From Magnetococcales bacterium (GTDB lineage: Bacteria; Pseudomonadota; Magnetococcia; Magnetococcales; JADFZT01), in contig JADFZT010000034.1 in the NCBI GenBank assembly GCA_015232395.1, forward strand, positions 1 to 47,915: a stretch of 47,915 nt of DNA, read 5' to 3'. The position numbers and the translations under genes are program-made. Below the pieces are notes generated by a model. It was not told the DNA's origin. It saw only the letters and a list, made by a program, of their open reading frames with translations, and searched no databases. Of this stretch, positions 1 to 22,173 are shown in pieces. Within the stretch, counting starts at the first letter, position 1. Each line of letters starts with the position of its first letter.

Positions 1-76
1 GACAGATATACATGCAGGCCGTTTTATCCTGACCTTTGCATCCGTCACACTTGTCGCTGATTACAAAACTCGGCAT
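1..76 (-). CDS. aprB: APS reductase beta subunit AprB, N-terminal fragment
   Basis: Only the first 25 codons lie inside the window; the gene runs off the left edge. The peptide begins MPSFVISDKCDGCKG and continues with DKTACMYIC, the start of the ferredoxin-like [4Fe-4S] fold of adenylylsulfate reductase beta subunits, whose known members begin almost identically. An AAGGAG ribosome site (85-90) sits 8 nt before the ATG. AprAB interconverts sulfite plus AMP and APS in the cytoplasm, oxidatively in sulfur oxidisers and reductively in sulfate reducers. hppA ends 41 nt upstream on the same strand, so the two are probably co-transcribed. The call rests on about 25 residues; another small ferredoxin with a similar N-terminus is possible but less likely. 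Confidence 0.8.
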   Translation of the reverse strand, partial: MPSFVISDKCDGCKGQDKTACMYIC

Positions 77-117
77 TGATGTTTCTCCTTTTTTCCAAAA
101 AAACCGGACGAATTCGA

Positions 118-2154
118 TTAGACGATCAGGGACACGATCAGGAGTGCCACGATATTGGTGATCTTGATCATCGGGTTGACGGCGGGGCCAGCGGTGTCTT
201 TGTAGGGGTCGCCTACGGTGTCGCCGGTGACGGCAGCTTTATGGGCTTCGGAGCCCTTACCGCCATGGTTGCCATCTTCGATGTATTTCTTGGCGTTATC
301 CCAAGCGCCACCACCGGTGGTCATGGAGATAGCGACAAAGATACCGGTGATGATGGTACCCATCAGAACGCCACCGAGAGCTTGAGGACCAAGCAGTACA
401 CCAACGATGATGGGGGCCAAAACCGGCAGCAGCGAGGGAATGATCATCTCGTTGATAGCGGCCAGGGTCAGCATGTCCACGGCTTTGGAATAGTCCGGCT
501 TGGCGGTACCTTCCATGATGCCGGGAATCTCTTTGAACTGCCGGCGGACTTCAACCACCACGGCGCCAGCGGCACGACCGACGGCTTCCATACCCATGGC
601 AGCGAAGACATAGGGCAGCAGACCACCGATGAAGAGACCGATGATGACCATATGGTTGGAAAGATCAAAGGTCACACCTTCGACAAAGTTGCTCAATTCG
701 TGGGTGTAGTCGGCAAAGAGCACCAGAGCAGCCAGACCAGCGGAACCGATGGCATAGCCTTTGGTCACGGCTTTGGTGGTGTTGCCCACCGCATCCAGAG
801 GATCGGTGATGTCGCGGATTTCAGAAGGCAGCTCGGCCATCTCGGCGATACCACCGGCGTTGTCGGTGATGGGGCCATAGGCGTCCAAGGCGACGATGAT
901 GCCGGTCATGGAGAGCATGGCGGTAGCGGCAATGGCAATGCCGTAGAGGCCGGCCAGGCCATGGGCGGCAAAGATGGAGAGACAGACCGCAATCACGGGG
1001 GCTGCGGTAGACTTCATGGAGACGCCGAGACCGGCGATGACGTTGGTGCCGTGGCCGGTTTCAGAGGCTTTGGCAATGTCACGTACCGGGGCATACTCGG
1101 TGGCGGTGTAATATTCGGTGATGACCACCATGGCAGCGGTGAGCAACAGGCCGATGAAGGCAGCGCCGTAGAGGGCTCCCACGGAGTGATGGCCGTTGTC
1201 GGTCATCAACCAGGTGGTGACAGGCCAGAAGAGTACGGCAGAGGCGACGGCGTTGACAGCCAAGCCCTTGTAAAGGGCAGTCATGATTTTTTGACCAGGC
1301 TGGGCTTTAACCGCAAAGACGCCGGCGATGGAACCCAAAATGGAGACACCACCCAGGGCCAGCGGATAGACCAGGGAGTTGCCAAAATCAGGCATGAGCA
1401 GTGCGCCCAGCAGCATGGAGGCGATCACGGTCACGGCATAGGTTTCGAACAGGTCAGCCGCCATACCGGCGCAGTCACCGACGTTGTCGCCCACGTTGTC
1501 GGCGATCACGGCGGGGTTGCGTGGGTCATCCTCGGGGATGCCTGCTTCCACTTTACCCACCAGGTCAGCACCCACATCCGCGCCCTTGGTGAAGATACCG
1601 CCACCAAGACGGGCAAAGATGGAGATCAGCGAGCCACCAAAGGCGACACCAACCAGAGGCTTCAGGAGATGGGGTAGATCAGAGGTGTCGCCCACCTTGA
1701 TCAGAATGGCAAACATCACCGAAACGGCGAGAATGCCCAGACCCACCACCAGCAAGCCGGTGATGGCGCCACCCCGGAAGGCCACCTGAAGGGCTTCGTT
1801 AATTCCCCCCTTGGCGGCTTCGGCGGTGCGGACATTGGCTTTCACCGAAATGCCCATGCCGATGAAGCCGGTGGCCGCTGACATCACCGCACCCACCGCA
1901 AAACCGATGGCCGTGGCAAAGTCGAGGAAGATAATCAACATGACAAAGAGCACACCACCCACATAACCGATGGTGGTGTATTGCCGCTTCATGTAGGCCA
2001 TGGCGCCTTCTTCAATAGCGCCAGCAATTTCCTGCATTCGTTCATTCCCGGCCGACAGACCCAGGATCCAGTTCCTGGACATGACCCCAAATACCACTGC
2101 TCCCAGACCACACATAATGGCCAGGGTGATCCCCGCACCCGACAGTTCAAGCAT
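118..2154 (-). CDS. hppA: Membrane-bound proton-translocating pyrophosphatase
   Basis: A 678-aa integral membrane pump that couples PPi hydrolysis to ion transport and can run backwards to make PPi. The family signature [11 protein letters not shown] is at about 193-203, followed by the metal-PPi binding DNVGDNVGD at about 219-227. Many hydrophobic helices span the whole protein, and the length is normal for the family. Residue 461, in [10 protein letters not shown], is Lys. In this family Lys at that position marks the K+-independent H+-pumping type, whereas K+-dependent members have Ala. The start is supported by a GAGGAAGG-like ribosome site about 10 nt upstream. It lies between adk (65 nt upstream) and aprB (41 nt downstream), which suggests a role in PPi economy around APS metabolism. 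Confidence 0.96.
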
Positions 2155-2219
2155 GACCTAAACCCCTTCCTCAAAAAAAAAGCCTACGATTACAGAAAAG
2201 TTTCTCATCAGAAGGTGCA

Positions 2220-2861
2220 TCAATCCAGAATGTCGCAGAGAGCCTGGAATACGTCATCCATGGCTCCCATGCCGTCCACTGATTTGAAGGCACCTTTGTC
2301 TTTGTAAAAGCCGATCACCGGAGCGGTCTGGGCATCGTAGACCGAGAGACGATTGCGTACGGTCTCTTCGTTGTCATCGGCGCGGGTGGTAAGTGTCCCG
2401 CCGCACTTGTCGCAAACCCCATCCTTGGCGGGTTTTTTGTTGGTCTTGTGATAGCCTTCACCACAGCCGGAGCAGGTGGAGCGTCCGGTAATCCGGGCCA
2501 CCAGCGCTTCGGAGTCGGCAGCAATGTCGATTACATGGTCGATCTTGAGGGAGCGGCTTGAAAGCATGCCTTCCAGGGCATCGGCCTGGGAGACGGTGCG
2601 GGGAAATCCATCGAGGATGAATCCCTTCTTACAATCAGCCTCATCAATGCGGTCACCGATGATACCCACCACGATATCATCCGTCACCAAGGCTCCTGCC
2701 TCCATGGCCTCCTTGGCTTTCAGGCCCACAGGTGTTCCCGCCTTGACGGCAGCCCGGAGCATATCTCCGGTGGAAAGTTGTGGAATGCTGTATTTTTCCG
2801 CAATTCTGCGTGCTTGTGTTCCTTTGCCGGCACCCGGCGGCCCCATGAAAATCAGATTCAT
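2220..2861 (-). CDS. adk: Adenylate kinase with zinc LID
   Basis: Catalyses AMP + ATP to 2 ADP in the cytoplasm. The 213-aa protein begins [16 protein letters not shown], with the P-loop at about 7-15. The AMP-binding segment (TGDMLRAAV) and the FILDGFPRT motif follow. The LID domain carries four cysteines (about 130, 133, 150, 153) in a C-x2-C-x16-C-x2-C pattern, the zinc-binding type. The reading frame extends 11 codons further upstream, but the ATG at 2861 is preferred: it begins exactly at the conserved N-terminus and has a GGGAG ribosome site 7 nt before it. It is the first gene of a likely adk-hppA-aprB unit. AMP is the acceptor consumed when AprAB oxidises sulfite, so the placement makes sense. 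Confidence 0.97.
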
Positions 2862-2945
2862 CAACGGACTCCCTTTTCCACGATCCCAGACCAAAACTTC
2901 ACAGTACGATTAAGAAAGACAGAATATTCGGATTTACTTGAAAAC

Positions 2946-3236
2946 TCAAACCCCCGCAACAGAAAAATGACGGCTTTTTGCAACCTGGGCGATCAGCTCC
3001 CGATCCACATCAGCAGGAAGGGGTTTGATCTCCATGATCCAGTCGAGAAGGTCGGCGTCAGGAAGGTCCAGCAAGCGCAAAAAACGCAGGCATTGATCCC
3101 CATCCATCGTTTCCAGATGTTGGGTCAAATAGCGGTCAAAAATTTGTTCCATTTCCGGCATCGCCCGACGACGGGCCATAAAGGAAAGGCGGCGGCGCAT
3201 GGCAGAGATTTCCAGATCATCACCGGGCATGGTCAC
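2946..3236 (-). CDS. sdhE: SdhE-type FAD assembly factor
   Basis: A 96-aa protein of the SdhE/Sdh5 (DUF339) family, small helical proteins that help attach FAD covalently to the flavoprotein subunit of succinate dehydrogenase or fumarate reductase. Family features are the Arg-rich MRRRLSFMARRR start, then ...IFDRYLTQHL and LRLLDLPDADLLDWIM. The conserved RGxxE motif reads RAMPE (about 24-28), so its Gly is replaced by Ala. The frame opens with GTG at 3236, overlapping the TGA of the upstream pentapeptide gene; an ATG at 3230 is an equally plausible start. The pair looks translationally coupled. Its target may be the frdA product encoded about 6 kb away, although that FrdA lacks the usual FAD-linked His. 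Confidence 0.85.
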   Translation of the reverse strand: MTMPGDDLEISAMRRRLSFMARRRAMPEMEQIFDRYLTQHLETMDGDQCLRFLRLLDLPDADLLDWIMEIKPLPADVDRELIAQVAKSRHFSVAGV

Positions 3237-18885: not shown

Positions 18886-19482
18886 TCAATAGTCCCGTCT
18901 GCCTGCCAATGCTTGGTAAAGTGTTGATTCGTCAAGATATTCTAGTTCTCCGCCCATCGGTAATCCATAGGCGAGTCGGGTGATGCGTTCGACACTTGGT
19001 TTGGCCAGTTGCGCCACATAGTGGGCGGTGGCCTCACCAGCGACGGTTGGATTGGTGGCGATGATCAGTTCTGTGATCCCACCCCGAACCAGCCGCTTTT
19101 CCAACTCCTCCATGTGGAGTTCGTCCGGCCCAATACCATCCAGAGGGCTTAACTGCCCTCCCAGGACATGATAATGCCCTTTAAAAAGTCCTGCATTTTC
19201 AATGGCTATCAGGTCAGCAGGCTCTTCCACGATACAGAGATGAGCCGACAGGCGTCCTGGATCCCGACAGATTCGGCAAAGGTCTTCTTCGGCCAGATTA
19301 AAACAGATTCCACAGGGGCGCACCCGGTCTCGTAATCTTTCTAAAGAATCAATCAGCTGTCCGGTCTCTTCCCGCCCTTGACGCAGCAGGTGATAGACCA
19401 TTCTTTGGGCACTTTTTTTTCCAACTCCCGGAAATCGGGCAAGCTGGATAATCGTCCGCTCAACAGTAGGAAGCCCAATCAT
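18886..19482 (-). CDS. recR: Recombination mediator RecR
   Basis: 198 aa, the normal RecR length. An N-terminal helix-hairpin-helix (FPGVGKKSAQRMVYHLL) is followed by a C4 zinc finger (Cys57, 60, 69, 72) and a Toprim domain (LCIVEEPADLIAIE, then ATNPTVAGEATAHY). RecR acts with RecO, and RecF where present, to load RecA on gapped DNA. It is last in the widely conserved dnaX-ybaB-recR order, 40 nt after ybaB, and converges on nothing: the por operon follows in the same direction. Confidence 0.98.
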   Translation of the reverse strand: MIGLPTVERTIIQLARFPGVGKKSAQRMVYHLLRQGREETGQLIDSLERLRDRVRPCGICFNLAEEDLCRICRDPGRLSAHLCIVEEPADLIAIENAGLFKGHYHVLGGQLSPLDGIGPDELHMEELEKRLVRGGITELIIATNPTVAGEATAHYVAQLAKPSVERITRLAYGLPMGGELEYLDESTLYQALAGRRDY

Positions 19483-19522: not shown

Positions 19523-19843
19523 CTAGAACGGCATCATGCCCGGGGGGAGGTTGAGCCCGCCGGTGATTTGGGAAAGCTGTTGCTTTTGGAGATCCTGAAG
19601 CTTGGCATGTGCGTCGTTGAAGGCAGCTGCAATCAGATCTTCAAGCATTTCCACATCACCTGGATCCACCACTGTTTTATCGATCCGAATACTGACCATC
19701 TCCTGTTTACCGTTCAGGGTGACCTCCACCATGCCGCCTCCGGACTGGCCAACCACGGTTTGAGCAGCCAACTCTTCCTGCATTTTGGCCATCTTGCCCT
19801 GCATCTGCTGGGCCTGTTTCAGGAGATTTCCCAAATTTTTCAT
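19523..19843 (-). CDS. ybaB: YbaB/EbfC nucleoid-associated protein
   Basis: 106 aa starting MKNLGNLLKQAQQMQGKM, followed by a Gln/Met-rich helix and GGGMVEVTLNGKQEMVSIRI, the core of the YbaB/EbfC DNA-binding dimer family. It ends in a Pro-Gly-Met-rich tail. Family members bind DNA as dimers and influence nucleoid organisation. It sits between dnaX (105 nt upstream) and recR (40 nt downstream), its standard location. Confidence 0.97.
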   Translation of the reverse strand: MKNLGNLLKQAQQMQGKMAKMQEELAAQTVVGQSGGGMVEVTLNGKQEMVSIRIDKTVVDPGDVEMLEDLIAAAFNDAHAKLQDLQKQQLSQITGGLNLPPGMMPF

Positions 19844-19948: not shown

Positions 19949-22003
19949 TCAGATTTGTTGGAGTCCCAAATCGTCCAAAGGTTCCACTCCAGACAGTCGT
20001 GCCTGAAAATGACTGGTCAGCAGGCGGGCCGCCGGATGCGCCAACACTTCCTGTTCCAGTTGGGAGGTGTATTCGCGTTTTTGTCGGTCCACCCCTTCCT
20101 GGACTGTTTCGGGCCGGGGTTGATTGGAGGCAGGTCGGACCGATATCTGAAAGACCTCACACTCATGTTCCGTTAAAAATTCCCCCAGGGTTTTTTCCAA
20201 ACGGGCCGGAGGTCCAAAACACTCCTGGGTCAGTTGCAGCTCCAGATAACCTTTGGAGTCCTGATCTCCCGTTTTAAATCCCAAACAGGCGACCTGCTGC
20301 TTTAATTTGAGGGCCAGGAGTGGGGCTTTTTGTCCGGCAAAAGATAGCAACTGCTCCCACGAAGTCAAATCCCGGACATTTTTTTTTTGCAATGCCCCGG
20401 CCGCATCTCCCTGCAATGCGCCTTGATCTGGGGGTGGTCTGGGTGGAGAAAATGGATGCGTGGCCGGGGATCTGGCTGGGTTTAAATCAGCCTGATCTCC
20501 TGAAATATCAGCTGGTTTCTTCCGGTCAGAAGCTTCATTCGAAGGGTGTGGGGGTGTGGGATGAAGCACATTCTGGGAACGCTCCTTCCGGGGGGACGTC
20601 GAAGCCGGGAGGGGAGGAGATTTTGTTGCCGTCCTACCCGAATTGGCATGGGGGGTGGGACTCTTTTTTTTTTCTTCGGCCTGGCTGGGAGGACGATTGG
20701 TGGCGTTTTCCCCGGCCTCATTTCCGGTTTGCAGTGCACCTTGGATGGAGGTGTTGCCCGATGACCCGGCGGAAGGAGTCGATGAGGAGGAGCCTCCGGG
20801 AGCCCCCCCTGACGAGCTATCGGAAGAGGTCGGATGACTGCCCCCCTGCCCCCCTGCCCGGCCCCCACCTGGCGACGGCCCCAGAGAACGGATCAAACGA
20901 TCCAGATCCGGCACCGGCTTGAGATAGGCGACCCGGATCAGGAGCATCTCCAGGGCCTGCTGGGGATCGTTGGCCATGCGCAGATCATCCTGCCCCCGTA
21001 ACAGCACCTGATAGATCATCTGTAGCCGCTCCTGACTGGCGCTGCCGGTGATCTGGGCGATGCGGTTGAGTTGGGGATCCTGCTCCAGTAGCTCGGGGCT
21101 GGAGGGTCGAACCTTTTCTCTTACCCCCTGGTGGATACCATCCAGCAGTTCGTTGACCAGGGTTTTGGGCTCCACTCCCCCTTCATGAAACTGTCGGGCT
21201 GCGGCCAAAATTTCCGGCCCTTTGGCGTTTAGCAGGTCAGCCAAAAGGGTGAGCACCCCCTCCCGGTCGGTAAGGCCCAGGAGATGTTTGACGGTTTCAT
21301 AGTGAACCGATCCCTCACCGTGGGCAATCACTTGGTCGAGCACCGAAAGCCCATCCCGCACCGAGCCGTCCGCAGCCCGAACCACGGCAGCCAATCCCGG
21401 TGGGTCAAAGGCCACCTTTTCAGCTTCCAGAATTCGGGTCATGTGTCCGGTTAAAACCTCCCGGGGAACACGCTTGAGGTCGTAACGTTGACAGCGGCTG
21501 AGAATGGTGGCGGGAATTTTGCGGGATTCGGTGGTGGCAAAGATAAATTTGACGTGGTGTGGGGGCTCTTCCAGCGTTTTCAACAGGGCGTTGAAGGACT
21601 GGGTGGAGAGCATGTGCACCTCATCCAGGATATAGACCTTGAAGCGGGAGGCGGACGGGGCGTAGCAGACGGTATCCAGCACCTCCCGCATCTGGTCCAC
21701 CTTGGTGCGTGAGGCTGCATCGATCTCTTGAACGTCCGGGCTTCGACCACTGATGATTTCCTGGCAGGAGGAGCACTCACCACAGGGGTCTGGGGTGGTT
21801 TTTTCCTCGCAATTGAGGCACATGGCCAAGAGGCGGGCCAGGGTGGTCTTGCCGACACCGCGAATACCGGTGAAAAGAAATGCGTGGGGGATCCGGCCAC
21901 TTTCCAGGGCATTTTTCAGGGAGCGGGTAACGTGATCCTGCCCCACCAAAGCCTGGAAGCTTCGAGGCCGCCACTTGCGCGCCAGGACCACATAAGAGGG
22001 CAT
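19949..22003 (-). CDS. dnaX: DNA polymerase III subunits tau and gamma
   Basis: A 684-aa clamp-loader subunit. The AAA+ module has Walker A in GIRGVGKTTLA (about 46-56), a four-Cys zinc site (Cys65/74/77/80) and the Walker B segment DEVHMLS. A Pro/Ser/Gly-rich linker (about 370-560) leads to the C-terminal tau domain. In the linker an A10 run (20664-20673 on the complement) contains GAA AAA AAA AAG, the A AAA AAG heptamer used by E. coli dnaX. A -1 shift ends at TAG (20634-20636) after nine further codons, giving a gamma-like form of about 456 aa. The frame is open 58 codons upstream, but that stretch overlaps the SRP RNA; the ATG at 22003 matches family N-termini (MPSYVVLARKWRP). No strong ribosome site is visible. 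Confidence 0.97.
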   Translation of the reverse strand: MPSYVVLARKWRPRSFQALVGQDHVTRSLKNALESGRIPHAFLFTGIRGVGKTTLARLLAMCLNCEEKTTPDPCGECSSCQEIISGRSPDVQEIDAASRTKVDQMREVLDTVCYAPSASRFKVYILDEVHMLSTQSFNALLKTLEEPPHHVKFIFATTESRKIPATILSRCQRYDLKRVPREVLTGHMTRILEAEKVAFDPPGLAAVVRAADGSVRDGLSVLDQVIAHGEGSVHYETVKHLLGLTDREGVLTLLADLLNAKGPEILAAARQFHEGGVEPKTLVNELLDGIHQGVREKVRPSSPELLEQDPQLNRIAQITGSASQERLQMIYQVLLRGQDDLRMANDPQQALEMLLIRVAYLKPVPDLDRLIRSLGPSPGGGRAGGQGGSHPTSSDSSSGGAPGGSSSSTPSAGSSGNTSIQGALQTGNEAGENATNRPPSQAEEKKKSPTPHANSGRTATKSPPLPASTSPRKERSQNVLHPTPPHPSNEASDRKKPADISGDQADLNPARSPATHPFSPPRPPPDQGALQGDAAGALQKKNVRDLTSWEQLLSFAGQKAPLLALKLKQQVACLGFKTGDQDSKGYLELQLTQECFGPPARLEKTLGEFLTEHECEVFQISVRPASNQPRPETVQEGVDRQKREYTSQLEQEVLAHPAARLLTSHFQARLSGVEPLDDLGLQQI
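20634..20673 (-). promoter_or_regulatory. dnaX -1 frameshift signal
   Basis: The mRNA has ten consecutive A, read GAA AAA AAA AAG, so an A AAA AAG heptamer is in the zero frame with AAG as codon 447. The -1 frame then reads GAG TCC CAC and on to a TAG ten codons downstream. An imperfect 9-bp stem (GTCCCACCC with GGGTAGGAC, one C-A mismatch) starts 1 nt after the heptamer and could stimulate slippage. RNA polymerase slippage on A10, as known for Thermus dnaX, is an alternative mechanism. Confidence 0.8.
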
Positions 22004-22055: not shown

Positions 22056-22173
22056 GGGCGGCTCAGGCCAGGCGTACCACGGCACACAGATGATCCCGTT
22101 ACCGCTGCTACCTTCCGGTCCTGACGGAGTTGGCGGGTATCTGTTGCGTGGGACCTGGCCGTCAACGCCGCCC
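22056..22173 (-). ncRNA. ffs: Small signal recognition particle RNA (4.5S)
   Basis: On the minus strand the conserved SRP core GTCAGGACCGGAAGGTAGC is present with the GGAA-type apical loop and the asymmetric internal-loop residues. The ends pair: GGGCGGC at the 5' side (from 22173) with GCCGCCC at the 3' side (to 22056), and GGCCAGG with CCTGGCC further in, giving one long hairpin of about 118 nt. This is the helix-8-only bacterial form, which binds Ffh. It ends 52 nt before dnaX. Exact ends are estimated from pairing. Confidence 0.93.

Follow-up and report, generated by a model that had tools for sequence, protein, structure and literature searches.

The dnaX gene of the Magnetococcales bacterium studied here, which is uncultured and related to magnetic bacteria, is likely to be recoded into gamma-like short forms of the DNA polymerase III tau subunit, as judged from its sequence. 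The route that we favor, with some confidence but not a great deal, is slippage of RNA polymerase on two runs of ten A's (A10), similar to that in Thermus, with ribosomal frameshifting playing a minor part. The gene lies in a window of 47,915 nucleotides, the whole stretch of DNA that was analyzed, which is contig C34 of a draft genome of 4.94 Mb. We propose that RNA polymerase slips on both A10 runs, which are situated in the linker between domains I to III and domain V. Transcripts with 10 A's (or 10 ± 3n) would encode tau of 684 aa, whereas the gain or loss of a single A would lead to gamma-like proteins without domain V, of 456 or 506 aa for slips at run 1 and of 576 or 545 aa for slips at run 2. 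Ribosomal -1 slippage at the heptamer A_AAA_AAG may contribute, probably to a minor extent.

Why would a cell maintain such sites? The need of cells for the short clamp-loader form, gamma, has long been disputed, and the variety of routes to gamma is itself an argument that gamma matters. Both known recoding routes seem to occur in the Magnetococcales, a single order, together with a swap of roles between two species of one genus; the proposed connection between a lineage's lysine tRNAs and its use of ribosomal or transcriptional slippage thereby becomes directly testable in close relatives. Our literature search on dnaX in Magnetococcales found no earlier work. The trick as such is known; the window gene would extend it to a new lineage, among whose relatives another variant of it appears to be in use.

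The dnaX gene encodes 684 aa from an ATG start (22003-19949, minus strand), and its frame stays open through both A10 runs. The following features were identified, all on the minus strand; those in the linker come from reading the sequence.

22063..22160, minus strand: gene for the small SRP RNA, immediately upstream of dnaX (RF00169, 82.5 bits)
19949..22003, minus strand: dnaX, DNA polymerase III tau subunit (TIGR02397 dnaX_nterm 3.7e-131, PF13177, PF22608, PF12169)
20885..21304, minus strand: DnaX domain III, retained in every product (PF12169; residues 292-431 of a 742-aa reading, converted to coordinates)
20664..20673, minus strand: A10 run no. 1, codons 444-447 (GAA AAA AAA AAG)
20663..20669, minus strand: heptamer A_AAA_AAG in the 0 frame, overlapping upstream with A_AAA_AAA
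20631..20661, minus strand: imperfect stem-loop (4 bp, a mismatch and 4 bp; GUCC-C-ACCC / GGGU-A-GGAC), 1 nt past the heptamer
20634..20636, minus strand: TAG, the -1-frame stop nine codons past run 1, within the 3' arm of the stem
20379..20388, minus strand: A10 run no. 2, codons 539-542 (CAA AAA AAA AAT), at the boundary of linker and domain V
19952..20371, minus strand: tau domain V (alpha binding), residues 545-684, absent from every shifted product (weak PF12362, E. coli tau chain 5fku_E at E 0.02, KH-like model)
19523..19843, minus strand: YbaB/EbfC gene, downstream of dnaX (TIGR00103)
18886..19482, minus strand: recR (TIGR00615), giving the gene order dnaX-ybaB-recR

The AAA+ clamp-loader domains I to III were identified by profile and domain V by weaker profile and fold matches. 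The similarity of residues 545-684 to the tau C-terminal domain is weak but consistent. PF12362 matches the C-terminal region in 10 of 36 relatives and PF12170 in one. The AlphaFold model of domain V (pLDDT 88) has a KH-like topology, with weak fold matches that include 5fku_E, 5fkv_E and 2aya; the structure search with this domain gave no match below E 0.001, and E. coli tau chains were among the weak ones. Between the two parts, the linker that follows domain III is a Gly/Ser-rich stretch.

An earlier note on this DNA had proposed a programmed -1 frameshift in dnaX, and the elements that it described at run 1 are present. The exact E. coli heptamer lies in frame within A10 at 20669-20663, the TAG at 20636-20634 follows after nine codons and would give a product of about 456 aa beside the 684-aa tau, with the reading frames exact, and an imperfect stem (20661-20631) begins after 1 nt. 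The -1 continuation past run 1 reads ESHPPCQFG and then stops, so that the 456-aa product of an E. coli-type frameshift would end in ...KKKESHPPCQFG. The same 456-aa protein would result from a transcript with one additional A (or two fewer), and one A fewer would lead to 506 aa (stop at 20484-20482). The earlier note had overlooked the second A10 at 20388-20379, and it is run 2 that has counterparts in relatives. Run 2 has a phase identical to that of run 1 and stands just before the C-terminal domain; its -1 frame leads to 576 aa (stop at 20276-20274), with an off-frame peptide that reads CPGFDFVGAVAIF..., and its +1 frame leads to 545 aa (stop at 20367-20365). For runs 1 and 2, respectively, the off-frame stops follow after 9 and 34 codons in the -1 frame and after 59 and 3 codons in the +1 frame. 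All four shifted products keep domains I to III and lose residues 545-684. Judging from E. coli, such short forms would act as gamma does there, loading clamps without binding the polymerase subunit alpha. The runs, their frames and stops, the scarcity of long A runs in genes, the tRNA-Lys(CUU) gene and the related genes are read directly from sequence, whereas slippage, the ratio of its products and the role of the short forms are inferred.

The A10 runs in dnaX exceed what is expected by chance. We sampled 1.2 Mb of the window genome with 874 predicted coding sequences (997 kb coding) and took the expectation from synonymous shuffles. Sense-strand runs of A6, A7 and A8 were about twofold above this expectation (105 A8 runs were seen and 45 expected), A9 was depleted (7 seen and 12.3 expected), as were runs of at least nine A's (9 seen and 17 expected), and the only runs of at least ten A's were the two in dnaX. 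Baranov et al. noted that selection against slippage shows as a sudden drop and that the threshold is nine in many genomes (PMC1088944); the abrupt fall at nine suggests that selection acts from this length here as well. Lysine is encoded by AAA more often than by AAG (7974 versus 6345 codons), and A10 is among the commoner synonymous spellings of EKKK and QKKN. Since A10 is thus not an unlikely spelling of these motifs, the statistical argument draws on there being two such runs and on the depletion. The matches listed genome-wide include 11 distinct runs of at least ten A's; outside dnaX, a single one of them was seen to lie in the sense strand of a gene, which encodes a histidine kinase.

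Some further observations were made on long runs in this assembly (G000). This histidine kinase gene, with DAHL/GAF/PAS domains (L179, G000:C55:30500-34500; ORF 3-3221, minus strand), carries its A10 at codon 374. All 11 distinct listed A/T runs of at least ten are T on the plus strand of the contig and none is A, an asymmetry that is perhaps an assembly artifact; the count of long runs may therefore be too low, with the other orientation perhaps missing from the assembly. A T10 in contig C157, around positions 2753-2762 (L184), is flanked by two copies of CGGTCCATCCCCACGGGTGTGGGGAACAC-like repeats, which are probably a CRISPR array.

The relatives compared for dnaX are Magnetococcales genomes outside the family of the window genome. 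A long A run in the linker was found in four Magnetococcales dnaX genes, namely, those of the window genome (two A10), G003 and G014 (A9) and G022 (A8), and most others have none. Across 39 Magnetococcales dnaX genes, runs of at least eight A's were absent from 43 kb of clamp-loader coding sequence and occurred five times in 24 kb encoding linker and domain V. Neither A10 run is conserved, and the dnaX of the nearest relative (51% identity) does not even contain A6, which counts against slippage. Run 2, the A9 of genus g4 and the A8 of G022 share a position, in each case where QKK or KKK precedes a Trp that is invariant in domain V. Long A/T runs are numerous in the G022 genome (406 nine-base matches in 5.9 Mb), and for this reason we regard its A8 as weak support.

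The strongest evidence for slippage, drawn from sequence comparison, is the pair of sister genomes in genus g4, G003 (L118, G003:C151:19200-21700) and G014 (L122, G014:C33:3700-6000). Their DnaX proteins are 73% identical and the A9 is kept, with differing flanks and linkers. The G014 gene has domain V in frame, and its off-frame stops lie 11 and 1 codons past the A9. The G003 gene would end in the 0 frame two codons past the A9 (391 aa); as its domain V lies in the -1 frame, tau would need recoding there. Conservation of the A9 together with a swapped frame is expected for transcriptional slippage, since slips in both directions make either frame tolerable (the criterion of PMC3711429), and both layouts, with tau in the 0 frame or with tau needing a shift, are known from other dnaX genes (PMC3711429, PMC5009743). 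Matches to nine-base A runs are rare in g4 (7 in 2.0 Mb of G014 and 22 in 3.1 Mb of G003). The frame in G003, a metagenome-assembled genome (MAG) with 6% contamination, could be a homopolymer assembly error. A frame break in the dnaX of G042 (L012/L131) was also considered as recoding and was dropped, as it coincides with an N-gap in the assembly. Among 75 alphaproteobacterial dnaX loci, we found no in-frame A_AAA_AAG, and a run of at least eight A's occurred only once. This single run is an A10 at dnaX codon 409 of an AT-richer alphaproteobacterial MAG from termite gut (L076, WRDR01000001.1), followed by stops at once in the +1 frame and after three codons in the -1 frame, a Thermus-like layout.

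Two other members of the order, both in genus g12, carry a full E. coli-type signal at dnaX codon 390/391 (L120, G011:C1:2148000-2150700; L121, G023:C8:163700-166200). In E. coli, AAG is paired only weakly by the one lysine tRNA present, tRNA-Lys(UUU), and the site slips for this reason; the presence of two lysine tRNAs in Thermus is given as a likely reason for transcriptional slippage there (PMC5009743). The closed genome G011 has 43 tRNA genes with tRNA-Lys(UUU) as the single lysine tRNA, and G023 gave no match to a tRNA-Lys(CUU) gene. The window genome encodes tRNA-Lys(CUU) on contig C147, as do most other Magnetococcales tested, and slippage on A_AAA_AAG should therefore be weakened. A gene for tRNA-Lys(UUU) was not found in its incomplete assembly; however, this tRNA must exist in the host, as it is needed to read AAA. 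G003 carries both. We tentatively consider, as a possibility and no firmer than that, that dnaX recoding within one order switched mechanism in step with the lysine tRNAs, with an E. coli-type signal in g12, and with poly-A slippage in the window genome and g4 in the presence of tRNA-Lys(CUU), there being two tandem sites in the former and swapped roles of tau and gamma in G003. This correlation draws on a very small number of lineages, one bearing the E. coli signal and two bearing poly-A, and we therefore treat it as a lead; it leaves out G014 (a MAG 69% complete), and several Magnetococcales genomes that lack tRNA-Lys(CUU) have neither signal.

Could the 456-aa protein be made by the ribosome, as in E. 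coli? In such a scheme, tRNA-Lys would slip on A_AAA_AAG aided by the stem, and about half of the ribosomes would stop at the TAG. The exact in-frame heptamer in the linker, the -1 stop after nine codons, the downstream stem and the signals in G011 and G023 of the same order all speak for this scheme, but the details at run 1 make it doubtful. In one scan for pairing with the anti-Shine-Dalgarno sequence, the duplex energies were -7.4 kcal/mol for E. coli K-12, -7.5 for L120 and -8.6 for L121, whereas the window site reached -2.5 kcal/mol, that is, it has no upstream Shine-Dalgarno sequence. The spacer between heptamer and stem is 5 nt in E. coli, 5-6 nt in L120 and L121 and 1 nt in the window, the folding energy beyond a 5-nt spacer is -6.9 kcal/mol in the window versus -18.7 kcal/mol in E. 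coli, and the -1 stop comes one codon after the heptamer in E. coli, L120 and L121 and nine codons after it in the window. The run 1 stem as a whole (-11.2 kcal/mol) has a z-score of -1.23 relative to dinucleotide shuffles, 23 of 200 of which fold equally well, and about 20% of 40-nt segments across dnaX do so too; it was dropped as evidence and is probably not a frameshift stimulator. We judged it by spacing and not by energy because shuffle z-scores fail to separate even the true E. coli stem. The nearby -1 stop was likewise dropped, such stops being common. A_AAA_AAG occurs in frame in 66 of the 874 sampled coding sequences, a -1 stop within nine codons follows 17 of 61 usable in-frame heptamers in the window genome and 24% of dnaX codons, and none of these 61 combines a near stop with a Shine-Dalgarno sequence. 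The combination of heptamer and near -1 stop is thus no more than chance. The recR gene has an A8 at its GKKS motif (19413-19420, minus strand) with A_AAA_AAA in frame, which illustrates how readily lysine pairs yield slippery strings in this genome. An Rfam search at the run 1 site returned no frameshift-element family among its matches, and likewise none for L120 and L121. The site has no counterpart in the relatives compared, and ribosomal frameshifting at run 1 leaves the second A10 unaccounted for. With two of three cis elements missing (the Shine-Dalgarno sequence and the stem spacing) and tRNA-Lys(CUU) encoded, where the E. coli site relies on its sole tRNA-Lys(UUU), we prefer to see run 1 as a site of polymerase slippage in which the heptamer occurs by coincidence. 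Of the frameshift proposed in the earlier note, a short gamma-like product remains plausible, and of its suggestion that two mechanisms overlap, polymerase slippage on A10 as in Thermus is the better-supported part and the ribosomal part is probably minor.

It is also conceivable, if rather unlikely, that no programmed event takes place, in which case the A10 runs would be lysine codons that a disordered linker tolerates, slippage would be noise, and tau would be the sole working product or gamma dispensable. Most Magnetococcales dnaX linkers are indeed free of long A runs and slippery sites, slippage is least harmful in a linker, and EKKK and QKKN are likely to be spelled with A10. However, two independent A10 runs in a genome that avoids runs of at least nine A's in genes speak against this reading, as does the A9 that is conserved with swapped frames in a sister family, where tau would require slippage. 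The Magnetococcales lie near the Alphaproteobacteria, and the window linker is Gly/Ser-rich, which would suit partial proteolysis of tau by ClpXP that halts at the low-complexity linker and makes gamma, with the A10 runs incidental. Caulobacter produces its gamma1 and gamma2 in this way (PMC5422525), but proteolysis predicts neither the A10 runs nor the frame swap in G003, and we consider it improbable here. Sliding of ribosomes on poly-A lysine codons, in place of polymerase slippage, does occur on consecutive AAA codons; in an E. coli cell-free system, though, A11 caused robust truncation and A9 and A10 caused little (PMC4363877), and with both runs here being A10 we give this explanation hardly any weight.

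Transcriptional slippage on the two A10 runs can be set beside several known systems. Like DnaX of Caulobacter crescentus, which belongs to a related class, the window protein would have short forms that end in the linker; in Caulobacter, these are made by a protease and not by recoding. The dnaX genes with two ORFs and 7 to 10 A's, such as those of Chlorobium and Chloroherpeton (Antonov et al. 2013, PMC3711429), share the poly-A run, and G003 has their two-ORF layout with a 0-frame stop past its A9, whereas tau is the 0-frame product in the window. With E. coli the window gene has in common an in-frame A_AAA_AAG in the linker between domains III and V and a predicted product without domain V. 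It lacks the Shine-Dalgarno sequence that the E. coli type has about 10 nt upstream of the heptamer, its stem follows at 1 nt and not at 5-6 nt, its -1 stop is nine codons away and not one, its host has a tRNA-Lys(CUU), and its heptamer is embedded in A10. The closest parallel that we propose is Thermus thermophilus, in which an A9 in dnaX is the site of transcriptional slippage (Larsen et al. 2000, according to PMC1088944 and PMC5009743). The window gene has two A10 runs instead of one A9, its off-frame stops (9, 59, 34 and 3 codons) are not all close, unlike those in Thermus, and its slippage is a prediction from the DNA sequence. In both cases, tau is encoded in one ORF, a sense-strand run of at least nine A's lies late in the gene with off-frame stops downstream, and two lysine tRNAs are expected in the window host, of which tRNA-Lys(CUU) was found; as for slippage of the Thermus type, the window genome avoids runs of at least nine A's in its genes.
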